64,000 bases of DNA, taken from the NCBI GenBank assembly GCA_013816805.1, contig JACDDS010000001.1, positions 209,001 through 273,000 of the forward strand, in the 5' to 3' direction. The stretch comes from Chitinophagales bacterium. Lineage in GTDB: Bacteria; Bacteroidota; Bacteroidia; Chitinophagales; UBA10324. Both the position numbers and the translations under genes were made by a program. Every line of letters begins with the position of its first letter. Within the stretch, counting starts at the first letter, position 1. Of the stretch, positions 52,075 through 64,000 are shown piece after piece. A model generated the notes under the pieces. The model ran no database searches and was not told the origin of the DNA. It worked only from the letters and a program-made list of their open reading frames with translations.

Positions 52075-53979
52075 ATGTTATCCCTTTCTCTTCTTATACC
52101 GCTACTGCCATTCATCGGCTTCCTTGTAAATGGGTTGGGTTTTAGAAGAATTTCTAAAGGCTTAGTCGCCAGCATTGGATGTGGCTCCATACTGGCATCC
52201 TTCATTATTGTTGCCGTTTTATTTGCTCAAACGTATTCATCTCCCGAAGTACAGAAAATTGATCTTTTCAACTGGATTGCAACAAGCAGCATAAATGTTT
52301 CTTTCTCATTCTGGATCGATCATCTGTCGCTCATTATGATGTTAATCATTACTGGTGTGGGCTTTCTTATCCATCTGTACTCTATAGGATATATGCACGA
52401 AGATGAAGGATACGGGAAATTCTTTTCTTACATGAACCTATTTATTTTTTTTATGCTGCTGCTTGTAATGGGAGCTAATTATGTAATCATGTTTATCGGC
52501 TGGGAAGGAGTTGGTTTATGTTCCTATTTGCTGATTGGGTTTTGGTGGAAAGATAAAAATTTTTCAGCGGCAGCAAATAAGGCATTTATTATGAACCGTA
52601 TCGGTGACCTGGGCTTTATACTCGGCATTTTTTTAATGTTTAAGACTTTTGGTTCTTCGGATTTTGATATAATTTTTTCCTCGGTTGCCCCTTTCAGCTT
52701 AAATGATCCGGTAATAGTGTCGATTACCCTCTTATTGTTTGTGGGAGCCATTGGAAAAAGTGCGCAAATTCCACTATTCACATGGCTTCCTGATGCCATG
52801 GCGGGTCCTACACCCGTGAGTGCACTTATTCATGCAGCTACCATGGTAACGGCTGGAGTTTATATGGTGGTACGCTCCAATATTTTATATTCATTGGCAC
52901 CATTCACTTTGGAAATAGTTTCAATTACCGGATTGCTGACTGCAATTCTAGGAGCTTTGATAGCTCTCACACAAAACGATATTAAAAAAGTACTGGCTTA
53001 TTCTACGGTAAGCCAGCTGGGATATATGTTTGTAGCGCTTGGATCATCTGCATATTCTTCCGGTATTTTTCATGTGATGACTCATGCATTCTTTAAGGCA
53101 TTATTATTTCTTGGCGCTGGAAGTGTGATTCATGCTTTGGGCGGAGAGCAAAATATTCGAAACATGGGTGGCTTAAAGAAATACCTTCCGGTTACTTCAG
53201 TAACATTTTTTATAGCCACTCTTGCCATTTCAGGATTTCCGCCGTTCTCAGGTTTTTTTTCGAAAGATGAAATCATCTTAATGTCTTATGCTAACAACCC
53301 TGTATTTTTTTATCTGCTTGTACTCACCAGCATTCTAACAGGAATTTATATGTTTCGTTTATATTTCCTGGTGTTTTGGGGAACATTCAGAGGTACCCCC
53401 CATCAGCACGATCATCTCCATGAATCGCCGCTTTCAATAATTGTTCCTTTAATGATTTTATCTTTTTTTTCAGTTTTTGCTGGGCTCCTGGGTTTACCGG
53501 AATTTATCACTGATCACCATTGGCTGAATACCTACCTCACTCCAGTTTTTTCTAACAATACTTATCTGATTAAAGAAGTACCCACTTCCACACTGGAATT
53601 CTTAACGATAATTTTTCTTGTATTGGCATTACTGTTAACCATCGCTGCTACTTACAATTTATATGTGAAGAAGAGGGTTGAAAGCTTGAATGAATCTCAT
53701 TCTTTTTTTTACAAGCTTTCCTATAATAAGTTTTACGTAGATGAACTCTACCATGTTTTATTTGTACATCCTTTGCTTTCATTTTCAAAATTCTTCAGGA
53801 ATTACATAGAAAATAATATTATTGATGGTTCTGTAAACGGAGCAGGAAATCTAACGGTTTATTTAAGCACGTGGATGAGAAAAATTCAAACAGGAAATAT
53901 TGGACTATATGTAATAATGATGGTAGCAGGTATTGTGGCCATTCTGGTTTTCGGATTGTCTAAACTGTTTGCATTCTGA
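52075..53979 (+). CDS. nuoL: NADH-quinone oxidoreductase subunit L
   Basis: A 634-residue antiporter-like subunit of complex I with about 15 membrane segments. SFWIDHLSLIMMLIITGVGF and WEGVGLCSYLLIGFWW are NuoL hallmarks, and LPDAMAGPTPVSALIHAATMV carries conserved lysine/histidine channel residues around it. DIKKVLAYSTVSQLGYMF is the other signature. It moves protons during NADH (or ferredoxin) oxidation. The stop is 4 nt before nuoM. No nuoA-K genes precede it; the previous gene is a rhomboid protease. Confidence 0.96.
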   Translation: MLSLSLLIPLLPFIGFLVNGLGFRRISKGLVASIGCGSILASFIIVAVLFAQTYSSPEVQKIDLFNWIATSSINVSFSFWIDHLSLIMMLIITGVGFLIHLYSIGYMHEDEGYGKFFSYMNLFIFFMLLLVMGANYVIMFIGWEGVGLCSYLLIGFWWKDKNFSAAANKAFIMNRIGDLGFILGIFLMFKTFGSSDFDIIFSSVAPFSLNDPVIVSITLLLFVGAIGKSAQIPLFTWLPDAMAGPTPVSALIHAATMVTAGVYMVVRSNILYSLAPFTLEIVSITGLLTAILGALIALTQNDIKKVLAYSTVSQLGYMFVALGSSAYSSGIFHVMTHAFFKALLFLGAGSVIHALGGEQNIRNMGGLKKYLPVTSVTFFIATLAISGFPPFSGFFSKDEIILMSYANNPVFFYLLVLTSILTGIYMFRLYFLVFWGTFRGTPHQHDHLHESPLSIIVPLMILSFFSVFAGLLGLPEFITDHHWLNTYLTPVFSNNTYLIKEVPTSTLEFLTIIFLVLALLLTIAATYNLYVKKRVESLNESHSFFYKLSYNKFYVDELYHVLFVHPLLSFSKFFRNYIENNIIDGSVNGAGNLTVYLSTWMRKIQTGNIGLYVIMMVAGIVAILVFGLSKLFAF

Positions 53980-53983
53980 TTCC

Positions 53984-55456
53984 ATGACAGCTCTGTTAAT
54001 TCTTGTCGCCCCCTTCATTTTGCTTCTGTCCATTTTGCTTGCTCCCGTATCTAAGAGCAGCCGCATTGCATTGATAGGATCATTAGTAATTCTAGCACTT
54101 ATCATTCTGGCTTTAGTAGAATTCTATAAAAGTGACTTTTTATCGCTTTCTAAAGATGTAACCTGGATTCCATCACTTGGAATTTCCTTTAACATAGGCA
54201 TAGACGGAATCAGCCTGATATTGGTATTGCTTACCGGAATATTATATCCATTCATAATTGCAACAACTTTAGGAAATAAAGTTAAAGACCCAAAGGCATT
54301 TTATTCTCTGATGATTCTTATGCAATTTGGATTGGTAGGCGTTTTTATTTCCAAAGATGCTTTTCTTTTTTATGTTTTTTATGAATTAACACTCGTTCCC
54401 ATTTATTTTATTTGTGCAATATGGGGAGCAAAAAACAGCATTCCGGTTACACTAAAATTTTTTATTTACACCCTTGCCGGCAGTCTGTTGATGCTTGTCG
54501 CAATTCTTTACCTCTATTTTAAGACACCGGGTACTCACACATTTGATATAGCGTCTTTTTATACCCTGCAACTTTCTTCGACTGAGCAAAGCTGGATTTT
54601 CTGGGCGTTTTTTATAGCCTTTGCAATTAAAATTCCTGTATTTCCTTTTCACACATGGCAGCCGGATACCTACACGGTGTCACCCGCCGCAGGCACTATG
54701 CTCCTGGCAGGCATCATGTTGAAAATGGGTATTTACGGGCTTATACGTTTTGTACTTCCCATTGTACCAAATGCTGTTTTAGAATGGAGTAATCTATCAA
54801 TAGCGCTTTGTATCATCGGTATTATATATGCATCTGTCATTGCTCTGCGACAAAACGACCTTAAAACATTAATTGCCTATTCTTCCATTGCCCATGTGGG
54901 CCTCATTACCGCCGGCGTGTTATCGGTTAATGTAAATGGAGTACAGGGTGCAATGATTCAAATGTTTAACCATGGGGTGAATGTGATTGCTTTACTTTTT
55001 ATGGTAGACCTGATAGAACAAAAATATGGAACTCGATTGCTGAGTGAATTAAGTGGAGTAGCAGGTCAAATGAAAAAGGTGAGTGTTTTTTTTATAATTG
55101 TTCTTCTGGGGAGTGTGGGTTTACCACTTACCAACGGATTCATCGGAGAATTCCTTTTGCTTATGGGCATTTATTTTTATAATCCATGGGCTGCCGCTTT
55201 TGCAGGTCTCACACTCATACTCAGTGCTTGTTACATGTTACGCTTATATAAAAATGTTTTTCTTGGCGAAGTTGCTCCTGCATCAGGCACTTACCAGGAT
55301 TTTTCAGTTATGAACGGCTGGATATTGGTTTCGCTGTGTTTACTTGTGATAGCAACAGGAATTTATCCTGCAATGCTCTTGAGTGTTTCAAGCACAGCAG
55401 TTCAGCATATTCTGGAAGTATTTGCAACCCATCAATCAGCATTAAGTACATTATGA
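53984..55456 (+). CDS. nuoM: NADH-quinone oxidoreductase subunit M
   Basis: ATG 53984 is preferred to the in-frame ATG at 53933, which lies inside nuoL; the protein then starts MTALLILVAPFILLLSILL and has 490 residues. NuoM hallmarks: FNIGIDGISLILVLLTGILYP, FYVFYELTLVPIYFIC, FPFHTWQPDTYTVSPAAG and NDLKTLIAYSSIAHVG. It is a second proton-pumping antiporter-like subunit. The stop overlaps the nuoN start (ATGA). Confidence 0.96.
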   Translation: MTALLILVAPFILLLSILLAPVSKSSRIALIGSLVILALIILALVEFYKSDFLSLSKDVTWIPSLGISFNIGIDGISLILVLLTGILYPFIIATTLGNKVKDPKAFYSLMILMQFGLVGVFISKDAFLFYVFYELTLVPIYFICAIWGAKNSIPVTLKFFIYTLAGSLLMLVAILYLYFKTPGTHTFDIASFYTLQLSSTEQSWIFWAFFIAFAIKIPVFPFHTWQPDTYTVSPAAGTMLLAGIMLKMGIYGLIRFVLPIVPNAVLEWSNLSIALCIIGIIYASVIALRQNDLKTLIAYSSIAHVGLITAGVLSVNVNGVQGAMIQMFNHGVNVIALLFMVDLIEQKYGTRLLSELSGVAGQMKKVSVFFIIVLLGSVGLPLTNGFIGEFLLLMGIYFYNPWAAAFAGLTLILSACYMLRLYKNVFLGEVAPASGTYQDFSVMNGWILVSLCLLVIATGIYPAMLLSVSSTAVQHILEVFATHQSALSTL

Positions 55457-56829
55457 ATGTATTGATAGCGCTTACCGTTTTAGGGTTGTTATCCATGTTT
55501 AGTGGAGTCTTCAAAATCCGCCTTATAATATTACCTGTTACTGTTGTTGGATTAATAATTTCATTGGTGCTCAATGTTATTATGTGGAACACTAATCACT
55601 CGTATTTCAATAATATGATGTTAGTGGACAATTATGCTATTGCATTTAATGCTATTACCATAGTAACCGTTCTATTTATTGTACTGTTTTATCATCAGTT
55701 TCATTATAAAGAAGAAGTTCACTATTCAGAAGTTTTCGCAATAATTCTCTTTACTGCAGTGGGTGCGGTAATAATGTATTCATTTACCAATTTACTGATG
55801 CTATTTCTGGGTGTTGAAATATTATCCCTCAGCTTTTATGTACTTGCCGGATCGAAAAAAAGAGATCTGTTGTCCAACGAGGCATCGCTCAAATATTTTT
55901 TAATGGGCACATTTTCCACCGGTTTTTTATTGTTCGGTATCGCTATGCTGTATGGAGCTTCCGGTTCTTTTTCTCTGAATGAAATTGCCGCTTATGGAAA
56001 AGATGCCGCCGTTAAACCAAATACTTTTTTAATAGCCGGAATCTTACTGATAATGACAGGATTGCTTTTTAAAGTAGCAGCTGCACCTTTTCAATTCTGG
56101 ACTCCTGATGTATACCAGGGTGCGCCCACACTGGTCACAGGCTACATGGCTACTACCGGCAAAATTGCTGCAGTAGCGGCCTTTCTTAGATTATTTGAAT
56201 TAACCTTTCCTTCCCTTAAAGAAAATTATCAGGAGGTATTGTGGGCAATATCAGTGTTAACTATGCTGGTCGGAAATTTCATTGCTATTTATCAAAGGAA
56301 TGTAAAGAGGATGCTTGCATATTCCAGTATTTCACACGCCGGATATATGCTTATTGCTTTAGTTACTCTTAATGCCAGCTCTAACAGTGCTATTCTTTTT
56401 TATTCCGTTTCCTATACACTTGCTTCACTTACAGCCTTTGTGATCATAAAGGTTATGGAGCAGAATAAAATGGGCGAAACTTATGATGCATTTAATGGCT
56501 TATCACGCTCTAATCCTTTGCTTTTATTTATCCTTGCCATAGCAATGCTCTCACTTGCGGGCATACCATTTACAGCCGGCTTTTTCGGTAAATTTTATAT
56601 TTTTTATTCCGCAATCTCAGGAGGATGGATGTGGCTTGTTATAGTTGCAGTTATTAACTCTTTTATAAGTGTGTATTATTATTTCCGCCCTATACTGGCG
56701 GGGATTAAATTTCAGGAACCGGGCAAGCCTGTAATCATTTCGCCAACAATTAAAATTCTTTTGCTTACGCTTACATTTCTTACTCTTCTGTTTGGATTAT
56801 TACCTGGGTTAATTTCAGGTATTATTTAA
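55453..56829 (+). CDS. nuoN: NADH-quinone oxidoreductase subunit N
   Basis: ATG 55453 overlaps the nuoM TGA by 4 nt and gives a 458-residue protein; an in-frame start at 55336 lies inside nuoM and is rejected. NuoN hallmarks: LFLGVEILSLSFYVLAGSKK, AAAPFQFWTPDVYQGAPTLV and NVKRMLAYSSISHAGYML. It is the third antiporter-like complex I subunit. The end of the operon is followed by an independent permease gene after a 108-nt gap. Confidence 0.96.
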   Translation: MNVLIALTVLGLLSMFSGVFKIRLIILPVTVVGLIISLVLNVIMWNTNHSYFNNMMLVDNYAIAFNAITIVTVLFIVLFYHQFHYKEEVHYSEVFAIILFTAVGAVIMYSFTNLLMLFLGVEILSLSFYVLAGSKKRDLLSNEASLKYFLMGTFSTGFLLFGIAMLYGASGSFSLNEIAAYGKDAAVKPNTFLIAGILLIMTGLLFKVAAAPFQFWTPDVYQGAPTLVTGYMATTGKIAAVAAFLRLFELTFPSLKENYQEVLWAISVLTMLVGNFIAIYQRNVKRMLAYSSISHAGYMLIALVTLNASSNSAILFYSVSYTLASLTAFVIIKVMEQNKMGETYDAFNGLSRSNPLLLFILAIAMLSLAGIPFTAGFFGKFYIFYSAISGGWMWLVIVAVINSFISVYYYFRPILAGIKFQEPGKPVIISPTIKILLLTLTFLTLLFGLLPGLISGII

Positions 56830-58480: not shown

Positions 58481-58488
58481 TATATTTG
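58481..58488 (+). promoter_or_regulatory. Candidate Bacteroidota -7 promoter element before exbB
   Basis: TATATTTG fits TAnnTTTG and lies 36 nt before the exbB ATG; no clear -33 TTTG. It is the probable promoter of the operon running from exbB to beyond the window end. Confidence 0.5.
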
Positions 58489-58523: not shown

Positions 58524-59321
58524 ATGCAGAAGACATCTAATAACTCCGGTTTATTTACCGGGATTGTTCTCGTAGGATCGTTTATAATAGCATGGCTCGT
58601 TTACGTTTTTGTATTAGGAAATCCTAATAATTTTATAGATAATAATCCTAATAACGCTCCTAAGGAAGGGAACTTTTTGGGGATAGTTTACAAGGGAGGT
58701 TTCATCGTTCCGTTTCTTATTACGATGCTACTGATGGTAATAACGGTATCCATCGAACGGTTTCTTACTATTGGAAAGGCAAAAGGTACAGGTAATGTAA
58801 ATCAATTTGTGAAAAAGGTACAATACAATCTGTCAAATAACGATGTTGATGCGGCTGAAAAGGAATGCGATCGTCAAAAGGGTTCGGTTGCAAATGTGAT
58901 TAAATCCGGTCTTAAAAAATACAGGGAAATGATGGGTGAGCGTACCATGGCTAAAGACCAGCGGTTATTGGCCATCCAGAAAGATGTGGAAGAAAGCACT
59001 GCATTGGAATTGCCTATGCTAGAAAGAAATTTACCTGTAATAGCTACTCTTGCTCCTCTTGGAACATTGACAGGTTTATTGGGAACTGTGTTTGGGATGA
59101 TCCGGGCATTTGCTGCGCTGGCGCACGCTGGTGCTCCGGATGCTGTTCAGCTTTCTACCGGTATTTCTGAAGCGCTTATTAATACTGCTTTGGGTATTTT
59201 GACATCCAGCTTGGCAATAATAATGTATAATGTGTTTACCACTCGTATTGATAGCTTAACTTACGGAATTGATGAGGCCGGTTACAGCCTGCAACAAAAT
59301 TTTGCATCTAAAAACAGTTAA
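58524..59321 (+). CDS. exbB: MotA/TolQ/ExbB proton channel protein
   Basis: A 265-residue protein with an extra N-terminal membrane segment (about 12-31) before the conserved core. The first core helix is FIVPFLITMLLMVITVSIER; the last two include PVIATLAPLGTLTGLLGTVFGM and ALINTALGILTSSLAIIMYN, the MotA/TolQ/ExbB signature. It forms the pentameric channel around ExbD that powers TonB. The next gene (exbD) starts 11 nt later, and the whole cluster to 62573 looks like one operon. Confidence 0.95.
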   Translation: MQKTSNNSGLFTGIVLVGSFIIAWLVYVFVLGNPNNFIDNNPNNAPKEGNFLGIVYKGGFIVPFLITMLLMVITVSIERFLTIGKAKGTGNVNQFVKKVQYNLSNNDVDAAEKECDRQKGSVANVIKSGLKKYREMMGERTMAKDQRLLAIQKDVEESTALELPMLERNLPVIATLAPLGTLTGLLGTVFGMIRAFAALAHAGAPDAVQLSTGISEALINTALGILTSSLAIIMYNVFTTRIDSLTYGIDEAGYSLQQNFASKNS

Positions 59322-59332
59322 GATAATTTACT

Positions 59333-59962
59333 ATGCCTAAAGTTAAAGTTCCAAGAAAGAGCACCACAATTGATATGACACCTATGGTTGACATGGCATT
59401 TCTGCTGGTAACTTTTTTCATGCTTACTACTCAAATGCGACCGGAAGAACCTGTTACAATAAAAAAACCCTCTTCTATATCTACCATTATCATTCCTTCC
59501 AAGGATATAATGACAATTACGGTGAGCAGTGAAGGAAAGGCATTTTTCGATCTTTCCGGAAAATACTTCAGACAGACATTAATCCAAAAAATGGCGGAGG
59601 AATATAACACCTCCTTCACACAGGACGAGATTAATACTTTTGCAGTGCTTACCACTGTTGGCGTTCCTATGGCGCAGATGAAACAGTTTCTTGATCTTCG
59701 TCCGGAAGACCGAAAAAAAATAAAGCAGAGCGGTATTCCGATAGATTCAATGGGGGGCGAGTTGAGATACTGGATCGGCAATGCCAGAGCTGTTGACGCC
59801 AATGCAATCATCACCATACAAGGCGATCAGGATGCCAACGTTAAAGCTGTAAAGCAGGTAATTGCTACTCTTCAAAACCAGGATGTAAATCGCTTCAGTC
59901 TTATTACAGATAAAGAAACTCCTCCCACAGGATATATTGCTGACACAAAAAAAACTAAATAA
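59333..59962 (+). CDS. exbD: ExbD-family biopolymer transport protein (first copy)
   Basis: A 209-residue ExbD. The single helix IDMTPMVDMAFLLVTFFML carries the conserved channel aspartate in M-V-D-M. The periplasmic domain is larger than the classic ExbD (about 140 residues) and holds an insert around 95-145 (VLTTVGVPMAQMKQFLDLRP). ITIQGDQDANVKAVKQVIA and QDVNRFSLITDKE match the closing half. The second exbD follows 4 nt after the stop. Confidence 0.92.
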   Translation: MPKVKVPRKSTTIDMTPMVDMAFLLVTFFMLTTQMRPEEPVTIKKPSSISTIIIPSKDIMTITVSSEGKAFFDLSGKYFRQTLIQKMAEEYNTSFTQDEINTFAVLTTVGVPMAQMKQFLDLRPEDRKKIKQSGIPIDSMGGELRYWIGNARAVDANAIITIQGDQDANVKAVKQVIATLQNQDVNRFSLITDKETPPTGYIADTKKTK

Positions 59963-59966
59963 AGCT

Positions 59967-60515
59967 ATGGCAGAATTAGAAGGCAAATCGGAAAGTCATG
60001 GTAAAAAGAAAGGGGGCGCCAGAAGTAAGAAAATGTCCACTCGCATTGACATGACCCCTATGGTTGATCTTGCGTTTTTGCTGGTGACCTTTTTTATGCT
60101 TACAACTACTTTCAGTAAACCTACGGCTATGGAAGTGGTGATGCCGGACAAAAAAAAACCACAGGATACCTCGGAAACCAAAGTGAGGGAGTCAGAAGCA
60201 ATGACCGTTATTATGGACAAAAACAACCGGATTTACTATTACTTCGGTATTACTAATCCACAGGTTCAAACTTCAAATTATTCGGCTAAGGGCATACGCC
60301 AGGCCTTGTTAGATAAAGATGCAGAAGTGCGGCAGGAGCAGGCCCATGTGGGCCGGGATCAGAATGGCGTGGTGGTGCTCATAAAGCCTACTAACCAGGC
60401 ACGTTATCAAAACCTGGTAGACATTTTAGATGAAATGAAAATTGCGCACATAAAAAGATATGCTATTGTGGACGTAACTCCCGATGAGTTAACCATGCTT
60501 CCACAATCGCAATAA
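59967..60515 (+). CDS. exbD: ExbD-family biopolymer transport protein (second copy)
   Basis: ATG 59967 is chosen because the earlier in-frame ATG (59937) lies inside the first exbD. The 182-residue protein begins with a charged stretch GKKKGGARSKK and then IDMTPMVDLAFLLVTFFMLT, with the channel aspartate. It resembles its neighbour most in this helix, and the periplasmic parts differ, so the copies probably form mixed ExbD pairs. The tonB gene follows after 56 nt. Confidence 0.92.
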   Translation: MAELEGKSESHGKKKGGARSKKMSTRIDMTPMVDLAFLLVTFFMLTTTFSKPTAMEVVMPDKKKPQDTSETKVRESEAMTVIMDKNNRIYYYFGITNPQVQTSNYSAKGIRQALLDKDAEVRQEQAHVGRDQNGVVVLIKPTNQARYQNLVDILDEMKIAHIKRYAIVDVTPDELTMLPQSQ

Positions 60516-60571
60516 GTGTGGTACTTATGGAAAACCCTGATTATAGTCATCTAAACACTAAATAAAGAAGA

Positions 60572-61372
60572 ATGGAATCCAGCAAAATATTAACCGCCGA
60601 CCTTGATGATATTATTTTTGAAAACCGGAATAAAAATTACGGCGCTTATTTTTTAAGGAAAATATATAACCGCCACATCATGGTGGCAGGTATGACCACT
60701 CTTGCTGCCTTTATAATTGCCTTCAGCATTCCTTATATAAAAGCATTGCTTCATAAAGATGTGGTAGTAAAAAAACCAGTTACCACAGTAACAGAGCTGA
60801 GCGCGCCACCCCCTTTGGATAAAACAGAACCGCCACCACCTCCCCCAGATCTTCCTCCACCGCCTCCGAAAACTATTAAGTTTACACCCCCGGTTATTAA
60901 ACCTGATGAACAAGTACCGCCCGACCAGGAGCCGCCACCTGTGGAAGAATTAAAGGAAGCAGAGCCTGCAGCTACAACCGTAGACCCTAATGCCAATGTA
61001 GATTTCAGCGCTGCTCCTCCTGAACAACAGGTTGTAGAAGAAAAGAAACCTGAGATTTTTATGTATGTTGAACAGATGCCGGAATTTCCCGGAGGTGTTC
61101 AGGAGCTGCAAAAATATCTTTCAAAAAACATCCGGTACCCTGCCGCCGCCCGTGAAAACGGGATTGAAGGGAAAGTTGTACTTCAGTTTGTGGTAAATGA
61201 GTCAGGAAATATTTCAGACATTCAAGTAGTAAGGGATATAGGGGGTGGCTGTGCAGATGAGGCTATAAGAGTAGTAAAGAACATGCCACCATGGAAAGCC
61301 GGGAAGCAAAACGGTAACCCTGTAAAAGTTTATTTTAAACTTCCTGTTACATTTAAACTTGGCACGGAATAA
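60572..61372 (+). CDS. tonB: TonB energy-transducing protein
   Basis: A 266-residue TonB. A cytoplasmic lead (TADLDDIIFENRNKNYGAYF) typical of Bacteroidota TonB precedes a membrane helix (about 36-58). A periplasmic Pro-rich region follows (PPPPPPDLPPPPPK, about 87-100, then PPDQEPPPVEELKEAEP), and the C-terminal TonB domain (about 170-266) contains MPEFPGGVQELQKYLSKNI, IEGKVVLQFVV and CADEAIRVVKNMPPWKAG. It couples the inner-membrane proton gradient to outer-membrane transporters. The downstream small membrane gene starts 18 nt later. Confidence 0.95.
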   Translation: MESSKILTADLDDIIFENRNKNYGAYFLRKIYNRHIMVAGMTTLAAFIIAFSIPYIKALLHKDVVVKKPVTTVTELSAPPPLDKTEPPPPPPDLPPPPPKTIKFTPPVIKPDEQVPPDQEPPPVEELKEAEPAATTVDPNANVDFSAAPPEQQVVEEKKPEIFMYVEQMPEFPGGVQELQKYLSKNIRYPAAARENGIEGKVVLQFVVNESGNISDIQVVRDIGGGCADEAIRVVKNMPPWKAGKQNGNPVKVYFKLPVTFKLGTE

Positions 61373-61390
61373 GTCAATCGAAGCATTCTA

Positions 61391-61594
61391 TTGAACAATA
61401 AAATTCTTTTTGCCTTCCATCTCTTTATGGTGTTATTCTACATCGGGGTGGGAGGCATTTTTGTCTTTACCGATCTTTTCCCCGGCATCGCTTCTTTACC
61501 GAGGTATATTTTTGGAGGCCTCCTGCTTTTTTACGGATGCTATAGATTTTACCTGGTTTATAACCGGTATTACCGGCAAAACAACGGAGAATAA
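61391..61594 (+). CDS. Small membrane protein of unknown function
   Basis: A 67-residue protein with TTG start (no upstream ATG in frame; an internal ATG would lose 12 residues). Two hydrophobic segments (about 6-28 and 38-54, including YIFGGLLLFYGCYRFYLVY) suggest two membrane passes with a short basic tail. It sits between tonB and the PstS-like gene, 18 nt after the former and 1 nt before the latter, inside the operon. It overlaps a longer ORF in another frame whose downstream part is the PstS-like gene. Its role is unknown; the position suggests a membrane partner of the cluster. Confidence 0.7.
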   Translation: MNNKILFAFHLFMVLFYIGVGGIFVFTDLFPGIASLPRYIFGGLLLFYGCYRFYLVYNRYYRQNNGE

Positions 61595-61595
61595 A

Positions 61596-62549
61596 ATGAA
61601 TATCTCACAACCTGTTGCTCATTGCTTATATCTTTTAGCAGTAATAATTCTACTTGCTTCCTGTAACAGGAATTCAAAAAACAGCCCAACGGATACACCT
61701 ACGTCGGGTGAAATTTCTATCTCAGCAGATGAAACCTTTGAGCCGATTATTAGAAATGTAATAACAAACTTTCAAAGAGTTTATACCAATGCTAAAATAA
61801 TCGCATCCTACAAGGCGGAAACGGAGGTAATCAATGATTTATTAAATGATAAATCCAGGGTAATTGTTATAGCCCGCCCTCTTAACAGTGATGAAATGAA
61901 TTATTTCCATCAGCGTCAGTTTGAGCCTCGCCAAAACAAAATTGCTACGGATGCCGTATGTTTCATTATCAATACAAATAATCCTGATACCAACCTTAGC
62001 CAAAGTAAAGTGAGGGATATTATGAGCGGGAAGCAACGTTTATGGAGCGAAATAGATCCTAATTCTAGCCTAAAAGATATCAGTATTGTGTTTGACAATA
62101 ATAGTTCGAGCATTGTGAGATATATTAAAGATTCGATCAACGGTAGTGGTCAACTCCCTTTAAACACATATGCAGCTGCTTCCAATGCTGCTGTTGTGGA
62201 TTATGTTGAGAAAAACCCGGCTGCAATAGGAGTAATCGGAGTGAACTGGATAAGTCAAGGTGATGACAGCATTGCAAATAATTTTCTTCGACGCATAAAA
62301 CCTGTTGCGATTGGATCCGCCAATCCATCAGATACCAATTTTTATAAACCATTTCAATATTATATAATGCAGCATCAATATCCTTTTTTGAGGGACGTTT
62401 ATGTCATAAGCGGTGAACCAAGGATGGGGCTTGGAACAGGGTTTGCAAGTTATCTTGCATCAGATGAGGGCCAACGCATTATTCTTCGTTCAGGGTTAAT
62501 GCCGGCAACACAACCTGTGAGAGTAATAGAATTAAGAAAAGGGTTTTAA
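61596..62549 (+). CDS. PstS-like periplasmic binding lipoprotein
   Basis: ATG 61596 gives a lipoprotein signal (LLASC, Cys23) and a 317-residue protein; the ORF reaches back to 61410, but that part overlaps the small membrane gene and is not a real start. The rest is a type II periplasmic-binding-protein fold of the PstS/phosphate-binding type: ISISADETFEPIIRNVITNF, then ATDAVCFIINTNN and VRDIMSGKQRLWSEI (typical PstS-like loops). DYVEKNPAAIGVIGVNW and the closing half follow. No pstCAB genes are present, so its function is not standard phosphate ABC uptake. It probably belongs functionally to the ExbBD-TonB cluster. Confidence 0.88.
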   Translation: MNISQPVAHCLYLLAVIILLASCNRNSKNSPTDTPTSGEISISADETFEPIIRNVITNFQRVYTNAKIIASYKAETEVINDLLNDKSRVIVIARPLNSDEMNYFHQRQFEPRQNKIATDAVCFIINTNNPDTNLSQSKVRDIMSGKQRLWSEIDPNSSLKDISIVFDNNSSSIVRYIKDSINGSGQLPLNTYAAASNAAVVDYVEKNPAAIGVIGVNWISQGDDSIANNFLRRIKPVAIGSANPSDTNFYKPFQYYIMQHQYPFLRDVYVISGEPRMGLGTGFASYLASDEGQRIILRSGLMPATQPVRVIELRKGF

Positions 62550-62572
62550 TTGATTACTAAATTATCAGAGAG

Positions 62573-64000
62573 ATGAAAACATTTAAAGGGGGGGTCCTGA
62601 TATTTCTGCTTGCTGTTTCCGCAGTTAAAGCACAAAGCCTGACAGATGGCATAAAAGCTATTGACTATGAAAATTATGCATCTGCCCGAAATATTTTTAA
62701 AAAGCTTATTGCACAGCAGCCATCGGAAGGAAAAAATTACTATTACCTGGGTCAGGCATATGATAATTTAGGAAAGCGAGATTCAGCACGTATGGCATAT
62801 GATGCAGGAACAAAGGCTGATCCTAAATCTTTTTACAATTTTATAGGAATGGGAAGAACTTATCTGGATGATAACAATGTTCAAAAGGCAACTGAGTTTT
62901 TTGACAAAGCGAAGGGATTGTCTTCTTCCAAGGACCCTCTTTATTATACGCTCGTAGCCGACGCTTACGTCAATAGCGAGCATCCTAATAAGCAGGAGGG
63001 AATTAACCAGCTTAATAAGGCCATTGGCTATAATGATAAGGTTGCTGAAGTGTATTGGCAATTGGGACAGGCATATGAATCCCTGAACAGGGGAGGAGAA
63101 GCAGTATCTGCTTATGAACGAGCAGCCGAATTGAATCCTTCTTATGCCAAGGCCCATACCCGGATAGGTGTGATATGGAGACTTGCAAGAAATTATAACC
63201 AGTCGCTTGCAAGTCTTGAGAAAGCATTGCAGATAGATCCTAACTTTCCCCCGGCATACCGTCAATTAGCCGAATTATACTATAACACTGCTCAGTATGA
63301 TAAGGCAAAAACTGCCTTCGAGAAATATCGTGATCTTGCTGATAAAGATGACAATACTCAATATCAATACGCACAATATCTTTTCCTGAGTAAAGACTAT
63401 AAAGGTGCCATTTCCATACTGGATGAGTTGCGTAAACGCATTAATACTCCTGTTAGCTGGCGCTTATCTGCCTACTCAAATTATGAGTTGCAAAATTATG
63501 ATATAGGTAAAAATCAACTGGATACATTTTTCAGGAAAACAGACACCTCAAAAATTCTTTCTCTGGATTATGAGTATTATGGAAAATTACTTGGTAAAAC
63601 CGGAAATGATTCCCTTGCAATGCTAAACTTGAAAAAGGCAATAAGCATGGACACTTCCAAGTATGCGCTATATAATGAGATCGGAAACATCCTGTTGCAA
63701 AGTAAACAATATCACGAGGCGGCAGTTGCGTACCAAAGCAAAATTTCTGCATCGCCTAAAGATGCCACGCTTCAGGATTTCTTTAACGTAGGAAAATCGT
63801 ACTATCTATCTAAAGAATTTCCACTGTCTGATACGGCTTTTGTAGGCATGACCAAATTAAATAAGGCCTGGCCTATAGGTTATGTGTGGCAGGCCCGGGT
63901 TATGACAAACTTAGATAACCCCGATTCAACTAAAGGACTGGCAGCACCTTTTTACCATATGACTATTGCCAAAACCATGCAATTGCCAGATACAAGTAAG
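62573..64000 (+). CDS. TPR-repeat secreted protein (3' end outside the window)
   Basis: The reading frame from ATG 62573 is open to the last base (476 codons so far). A signal peptide (about 1-20, LLAVSAVKAQ) is followed by tandem TPR units, for example YYYLGQAYDNLGKRDSARMAY, AEVYWQLGQAYESLNRGGEAV and AHTRIGVIWRLARNYNQSL, each about 34 residues. The first half of a typical PstS-TPR partner in Bacteroidota exb clusters has this look. It starts 23 nt after the PstS-like gene. As a periplasmic scaffold it may bring partners to the TonB complex (inference). Confidence 0.85.
   Translation, partial: MKTFKGGVLIFLLAVSAVKAQSLTDGIKAIDYENYASARNIFKKLIAQQPSEGKNYYYLGQAYDNLGKRDSARMAYDAGTKADPKSFYNFIGMGRTYLDDNNVQKATEFFDKAKGLSSSKDPLYYTLVADAYVNSEHPNKQEGINQLNKAIGYNDKVAEVYWQLGQAYESLNRGGEAVSAYERAAELNPSYAKAHTRIGVIWRLARNYNQSLASLEKALQIDPNFPPAYRQLAELYYNTAQYDKAKTAFEKYRDLADKDDNTQYQYAQYLFLSKDYKGAISILDELRKRINTPVSWRLSAYSNYELQNYDIGKNQLDTFFRKTDTSKILSLDYEYYGKLLGKTGNDSLAMLNLKKAISMDTSKYALYNEIGNILLQSKQYHEAAVAYQSKISASPKDATLQDFFNVGKSYYLSKEFPLSDTAFVGMTKLNKAWPIGYVWQARVMTNLDNPDSTKGLAAPFYHMTIAKTMQLPDTSK

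Follow-up and report, generated by a model that had tools for sequence, protein, structure and literature searches.

We describe a seven-gene operon at the end of a stretch of 64,000 nucleotides (nt), here called the window (G000:C1:209001-273000), from a Bacteroidota genome of 3.57 Mb in 31 contigs. The genes run in one direction (58524-64501) and encode ExbB, two ExbD proteins (ExbD1 and ExbD2), TonB, a membrane protein of 67 amino acids (aa), a PstS-like lipoprotein and a tetratricopeptide repeat (TPR) protein. We consider it probable that they specify a two-ExbD TonB energy-transduction system with an obligate periplasmic module, in which the PstS-fold lipoprotein is an adaptor and the TPR protein a scaffold. 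The strongest result of the analysis is that ExbD2, the PstS-like lipoprotein and the TPR protein were found together or not at all. This co-occurrence was observed directly, as were the gene order, the family identities, the PstS fold, the loss of the phosphate motif and a separate pst operon.

Results

The operon

The features of the locus, with transmembrane abbreviated TM, are as follows.

58481..58488, + strand: promoter-like -7 box TATATTTG, a match to the Bacteroidota pattern TAnnTTTG that ends 35 nt upstream of exbB
58524..59321, + strand: proton channel of the ExbB/TolQ/MotA family, 265 aa (PF01618 MotA_ExbB, 4.1e-27)
59333..59962, + strand: ExbD copy 1, 209 aa, short N-terminus, TM Asp retained (DMTPMVDMAFLL) (PF02472, 1.7e-19)
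59967..60515, + strand: ExbD copy 2, 182 aa, Lys-rich N-terminus, TM Asp retained (PF02472, 4e-24)
60572..61372, + strand: TonB, 266 aa, with a single TM helix, a Pro-rich linker and a TonB_C domain (PF03544, 1.6e-20)
61391..61594, + strand: small 2-TM membrane protein, 67 aa, TTG start, family motif (F)G..LLYG.YR, no family found in Pfam or NCBIfam
61596..62549, + strand: PstS-fold lipoprotein, 317 aa, lipobox LLASC, remodelled ligand site (PF12849 PBP_like_2, 2.7e-37)
62573..64000 (in-window part), + strand: periplasmic TPR superhelix with signal peptide, 642 aa in total (Pfam TPR, 2e-26)

An earlier reading of these letters (the original prediction) had listed seven genes and their gaps, and open reading frame (ORF) calls confirmed both: the genes are co-directional, with gaps of 11, 4, 56, 18, 1 and 23 nt from exbB to the TPR gene; Pfam names all but the small protein. 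The genes are adjacent ORFs and not "fused", as had been written. The TPR gene crosses the end of the window by 501 nt (to L005:7501) and the next gene is convergent, so the operon ends at the TPR gene. Since the window holds no excess of the -7 box pattern (61 observed vs 78 expected), the match upstream of exbB is only suggestive of a promoter. Judged by ExbD2, the nearest named relatives are one unclassified Bacteroidota metagenome-assembled genome (MAG) and one Chitinophagales MAG.

Co-occurrence of the accessory genes with the motor

Forty-three genomes, picked from our survey list of PstS-like matches in Bacteroidota, were searched with alignments of ExbD2 and of the TPR protein. Twenty of them had no PstS-like match, two had a weak one and 21 a strong one. 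All genomes with a strong match contained ExbD2 (at least 130 bits, 21/21) and a TPR orthologue (at least 334 bits, 21/21). The other 22 contained neither: ExbD2 was found in 0/22 (maximum 57 bits) and the TPR protein in 0/22 (no match at E 1e-40). The association also holds where the genes are not neighbours. In the ten genomes of family f2 the two halves of the set lie about 20 kb apart (six genomes) or far apart or on other contigs (four), and both were kept in 10/10. Losses were seen even within genera: in g18, G084 lacks all that G021 and G057 have, and in g39, G230 lacks what G238 has.

Where the module is missing, the genomes still encode SusD proteins, with receptors numbering 23 to at least 84 and TonB_C proteins 2-23, and neither receptor nor SusD numbers differed clearly with the presence of the module. 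Because these genomes still hold receptors, SusD and TonB_C, it is the module as one block that comes or goes, independently of the rest of TonB biology; it marks one kind of TonB system among several.

Gene order across Bacteroidota

In a sample of 296 Bacteroidota genomes, PstS-like matches (ordinary PstS included) were present in 211, and 60 neighbourhoods were read. A PstS-like gene followed by a TPR gene occurred in 48 loci, the window's own included, over a spread of Bacteroidota genomes, usually in the order ExbB-ExbD-ExbD-TonB-small-PstS-TPR. As an independent anchor, ExbD2 alone was used in named genomes, which gave 66 ExbD-ExbD-TonB runs. Excluding five cut by contig ends, PstS lay at most five genes away in 43/61 runs and elsewhere in the locus in one more. 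Among the named carriers are Flavobacterium, Mucilaginibacter, Daejeonella, Hymenobacter, Spirosoma, Chryseolinea, Sporocytophaga and Prolixibacteraceae; runs without PstS came mostly from Chitinophagaceae and Saprospiraceae. In the f2 neighbourhoods that were read, the small-PstS-TPR part is separate from exbBDD, and in several of them it has a TonB of its own.

Since the same order recurs phylum-wide, the seven-gene set is far beyond chance. Linkage confined to close relatives, which the original prediction had named as a refutation, was thus not what we found. Conserved order and three-way all-or-none co-occurrence together make a functional link of the three accessory proteins with the motor well supported, and in this respect the earlier suggestion of a single device that unites the extra genes with ExbBDD-TonB holds.

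Two loci stand out. An uncultured Bacteroidales MAG (L147) has the order small-PstS-TPR-ExbB-ExbD-ExbD-TonB, its halves swapped yet adjacent. A MAG labelled Ignavibacteria (L155) also carries the operon; its PstS-like protein sits among Bacteroidia in the tree, and horizontal transfer or a binning error may account for it. Genes for NADH dehydrogenase (nuo) flank the operon in the window's genome, with nuoL-M-N-like genes upstream (window 52075-56829). At L048:8651-11929, nuoA-E-like genes confirmed by Pfam lie downstream of the TPR gene. By ORF length, nuo-like genes also lie downstream of it elsewhere in families f2 and f4 and in their relatives, the f2 ORFs after small-PstS-TPR matching in length the nuo genes of L048.

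The PstS-fold lipoprotein

The AlphaFold2 model of the lipoprotein had a mean predicted local distance difference test score (pLDDT) of 91.6. It matched the solved PstS 4gd5 (Z 27.9, root-mean-square deviation (rmsd) 2.1 over 241 residues, VIA-align), and the solved PstS proteins 4gd5, 4omb and 4q8r all share its fold (Z about 28, rmsd 2.0 to 2.5, 239-260 residues). The PstS model TIGR02136 scored 84.8 bits on it, against a cut-off of 206.6. Judged from these matches, the protein is a PstS at the level of fold only. The PstS-like identity given by the original prediction thus stood for the fold (PF12849, 2.7e-37) and fell at the family level.

Site residues were counted in 93 sequences of the operon family and compared with six real PstS proteins. 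The Ser and Arg that line the phosphate site of solved PstS proteins are mostly Asp in the operon family: in the N-terminal GS(S)T motif Ser42 is replaced by Asp in 85/93 sequences, and in the R..SGT motif Arg169 by Asp in 70/93. Glycines of the second loop are likewise replaced, and the SR arginine (position 91) is retained in 89/93. Pairwise alignments with solved 4n13 and 4gd5 gave the same phosphate-site changes. The real PstS of the same genome also lacks Arg169, and the Ser-to-Asp change is therefore the cleaner mark. In the tree, the real PstS proteins formed one group with 100/100 support, apart from the operon family.

A full pstS-pstC-pstA-pstB-phoU-phoB-phoR-like operon is present on contig C8. 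Because that operon has a PstS of its own, the lipoprotein studied here is not the pst transporter's subunit. The second refutation named by the original prediction, a standard pst operon served by this PstS, therefore did not arise either. PstS works with a partner ATP-binding cassette (ABC) transporter, whereas the lipoprotein has none, and pstCAB genes are absent from the TonB operon. With the site residues replaced and the real PstS proteins separate in the tree, binding of phosphate by the operon protein is unlikely. We rejected a phosphate role on the site residues and the separate pst operon, and with it the proposal of a phosphate sensor or carrier. The protein may bind another ligand or have a purely protein-binding role.

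Some operon-like PstS relatives adjoin a GGDEF diguanylate-cyclase gene and not TonB genes (L071:2861-6223 and L079:6046-9498, families f29 and f18). At L079 the GGDEF gene is followed by a MacB/FtsX-type protein. Judging from these neighbourhoods, some Bacteroidota families may put the same PstS-fold proteins to a second purpose.

The small protein and the TPR protein

At many loci the slot before PstS holds a small ORF. These ORFs align as one two-helix membrane family of about 65-100 aa, and its hidden Markov model also found matches in named genomes. Models for DUF7649 and coronavirus NS7B matched relatives of the small protein weakly, below cut-offs, and were discarded.

AlphaFold2 predicted, at high confidence, about 15 TPRs over residues 23-535 of the TPR protein, after a signal peptide; the C-terminal part of about 110 residues has no confident structure. 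The solved TPR protein 3u4t, whose title bears no link to TonB, matches residues 259-515 (E 7.8e-38), so that the second half has an orthologue, or a close homologue, of known crystal structure. CpoB and MamA were rejected as identities, with only generic TPR scores; the YbgF/CpoB model gave 22 bits against a cut-off of 90.1.

The motor core and known systems

PF01618, PF02472 (twice) and PF03544 all exceeded their gathering scores in this one operon. The TM aspartate of the ExbD proton pathway is invariant in the ExbD2 alignment (D34), with a matching motif in ExbD1. The best NCBIfam model for ExbB was TolQ (85.7 bits, under the cut-off of 221), and TolR scored 43.1 and 31.2 bits on the two ExbDs (cut-off 127.3).

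The operon's TonB is the sole TonB_C match in its genome, which encodes 22 Plug domains of TonB-dependent receptors. For this reason it is most likely the housekeeping TonB, the main driver of outer-membrane nutrient import here, and the "dedicated" device of the original prediction fits badly. Three ExbD genes were found in the genome, two in the operon and one on C6. The latter belongs to a second ExbB-ExbD pair (L039:6739-8775), followed by a TonB/TolA-like protein of 296 aa without a Pfam match, TonB_C included. Two or more tonB-like genes stand in the operon at L067, L087, L088, L093, L103 and L126, which suggests transducers sharing one motor.

The core is a known Bacteroidota TonB type, exbB-exbD-exbD-tonB, represented by the TonB2 system of Riemerella anatipestifer (exbB2-exbD21-exbD22-tonB2; PMC4446302). 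In that species tonB2 mutants are viable and impaired in the use of iron and hemin (PMC4446302). By analogy with this related system, the only one for which it has been demonstrated, the operon here would energise transport via receptors. When exbBDD-tonB2 was cloned without the downstream genes it did not energise the Riemerella hemin transporter in E. coli, and exbBD-tonB1 did (PMC4446302). Such a failure is as expected if partners were missing, a connection that is ours and not one made by the authors in the text available. There, four genes constitute the system; the PstS-like neighbour is recorded without comment on its role, and the small protein and the TPR protein are not considered (PMC4446302). 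The two-ExbD operon itself had thus been described before. Like the operon here, a single TonB system of Flavobacterium psychrophilum has two exbD loci, and an exbD mutant is on record (Alvarez et al. 2008, as cited in PMC9618737).

In Bacteroides thetaiotaomicron, BT2664-BT2668 likewise combine a substrate-binding protein with ExbDs and ExbB and form one co-regulated locus that went down together, 2.7 to 3.1-fold, in low iron; the data are on expression, with no function assigned (PMC10434189). That these genes change as one agrees with the unit proposed here. Since the genes fall together in low iron, the response does not look like that of a Fur-type iron-uptake operon. Within the searchable literature we found no paper in which the PstS-like protein and the TPR protein are treated as components of a TonB system.

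A likeness to Tol-Pal is apparent in the part list. That system (TolQ-TolR-TolA-TolB-Pal-CpoB) joins a motor and its transducer to a lipoprotein and a TPR protein, and the operon here brings the same four kinds of protein together. It differs in having TonB_C instead of a TolA domain, an unrelated lipoprotein and a much longer TPR array. In searches with Pfam and NCBIfam none of the seven proteins showed a TolB propeller or a Pal domain, and the scores of ExbB and the ExbDs stay below the TolQ and TolR equivalog cut-offs. A survey reported no tol-pal loci in Bacteroidetes and, in Planctomycetes-Verrucomicrobia-Chlamydiae (PVC) bacteria, a TPR gene with a tolQ-like and two tolR-like genes beside another transducer (PMC12204202).

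Discussion

In the mechanism we propose, an ExbB channel holding two different ExbDs would use the proton gradient to drive TonB. The channel is most likely an ExbB pentamer with one ExbD1 and one ExbD2, a stoichiometry taken from known 5:2 motors. TonB would pass the force to the 22 outer-membrane TonB-dependent transporters. To this machine the module would add three subunits with structural or regulatory roles, which position or gate TonB: the 2-TM protein in the inner membrane, the lipoprotein of PstS fold and the superhelical TPR protein. Most likely the lipoprotein is an adaptor or a gate and binds to the motor, to TonB or to a receptor, and the TPR superhelix is a scaffold that bridges these parts in the periplasm. 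The ExbD heterodimer, the physical complex and the adaptor and scaffold roles are what we infer.

Several points weigh against this proposal. The evidence that places the PstS-like protein, the TPR protein and the small protein in the machine is indirect. The genomes compared for co-occurrence are related, so that the counts are not independent events. Prevotella-like genomes (f18) have an exbBDD-tonB operon without adjacent PstS and TPR genes, and their PstS-like proteins adjoin GGDEF and MacB genes instead; the association is therefore not universal. The failure of the four-gene TonB2 set in E. coli could also be due to something else, for example its expression or its match with the receptor (PMC4446302).

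The lipoprotein could instead be a ligand sensor or carrier that binds a non-phosphate periplasmic solute and either controls the TonB motor as a gate or passes on what has been imported. Its fold is intact, predicted with high confidence and close to phosphate receptors, and the cleft looks selected and not decayed, with Arg91 kept and Asp42 newly conserved. However, the operon lacks an ABC permease or other carrier partner, and a single lipoprotein would need to work with a TonB on which 22 unlike receptors draw; we think this reading unlikely. That the protein is simply a misplaced PstS serving the genome's phosphate transporter would agree with its PF12849 domain and TIGR02136 match, but the complete pst operon on C8 with its own PstS, the grouping of the real PstS proteins and the replaced site residues make this extremely improbable.

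A different function for the whole machine is also conceivable, namely a Bacteroidota counterpart of Tol-Pal. Through the lipoprotein and the TPR protein the motor would then move a partner in the outer membrane or the cell wall, so as to maintain the envelope and not, or not only, to import nutrients. The TolQ and TolR models score best on ExbB and both ExbDs, below cut-offs, and both the absence of tol-pal loci from the surveyed Bacteroidetes and the PVC gene cluster point the same way (PMC12204202). Against it stand the clear TonB_C domain of the transducer, the lack of a TolB propeller or Pal domain, the low YbgF/CpoB score of the TPR protein, and the viable Riemerella tonB2 mutants with their defects in iron and hemin use (PMC4446302). 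We regard such a counterpart as rather improbable. Finally, the small, PstS-like and TPR genes might be separate housekeeping genes carried beside the TonB operon and the nuo genes by descent. The nuo genes do stand beside the operon, here as in other lineages, and some neighbours may be passengers; but the all-or-none loss of ExbD2, PstS-like and TPR genes across families and within genera, even when far apart, makes ancestral order alone very unlikely.

We therefore retain the two-ExbD TonB system with its periplasmic module. A bolder form of it, which we hold doubtful, is that the PstS fold was recruited as a mechanical or gating subunit and that ExbB, an ExbD1/ExbD2 heterodimer, TonB and the 2-TM, PstS-fold and TPR proteins are one machine combining import with a Tol-Pal-like envelope role.

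The module is real and conserved and has been largely overlooked in the searchable literature, but it is built on a known TonB type. For glycans, iron and heme Bacteroidota depend on TonB-dependent receptors, yet descriptions of TonB systems list three or four proteins. Three extra envelope proteins that come and go with the motor in the compared genomes suggest that the system has working parts which textbook accounts omit.

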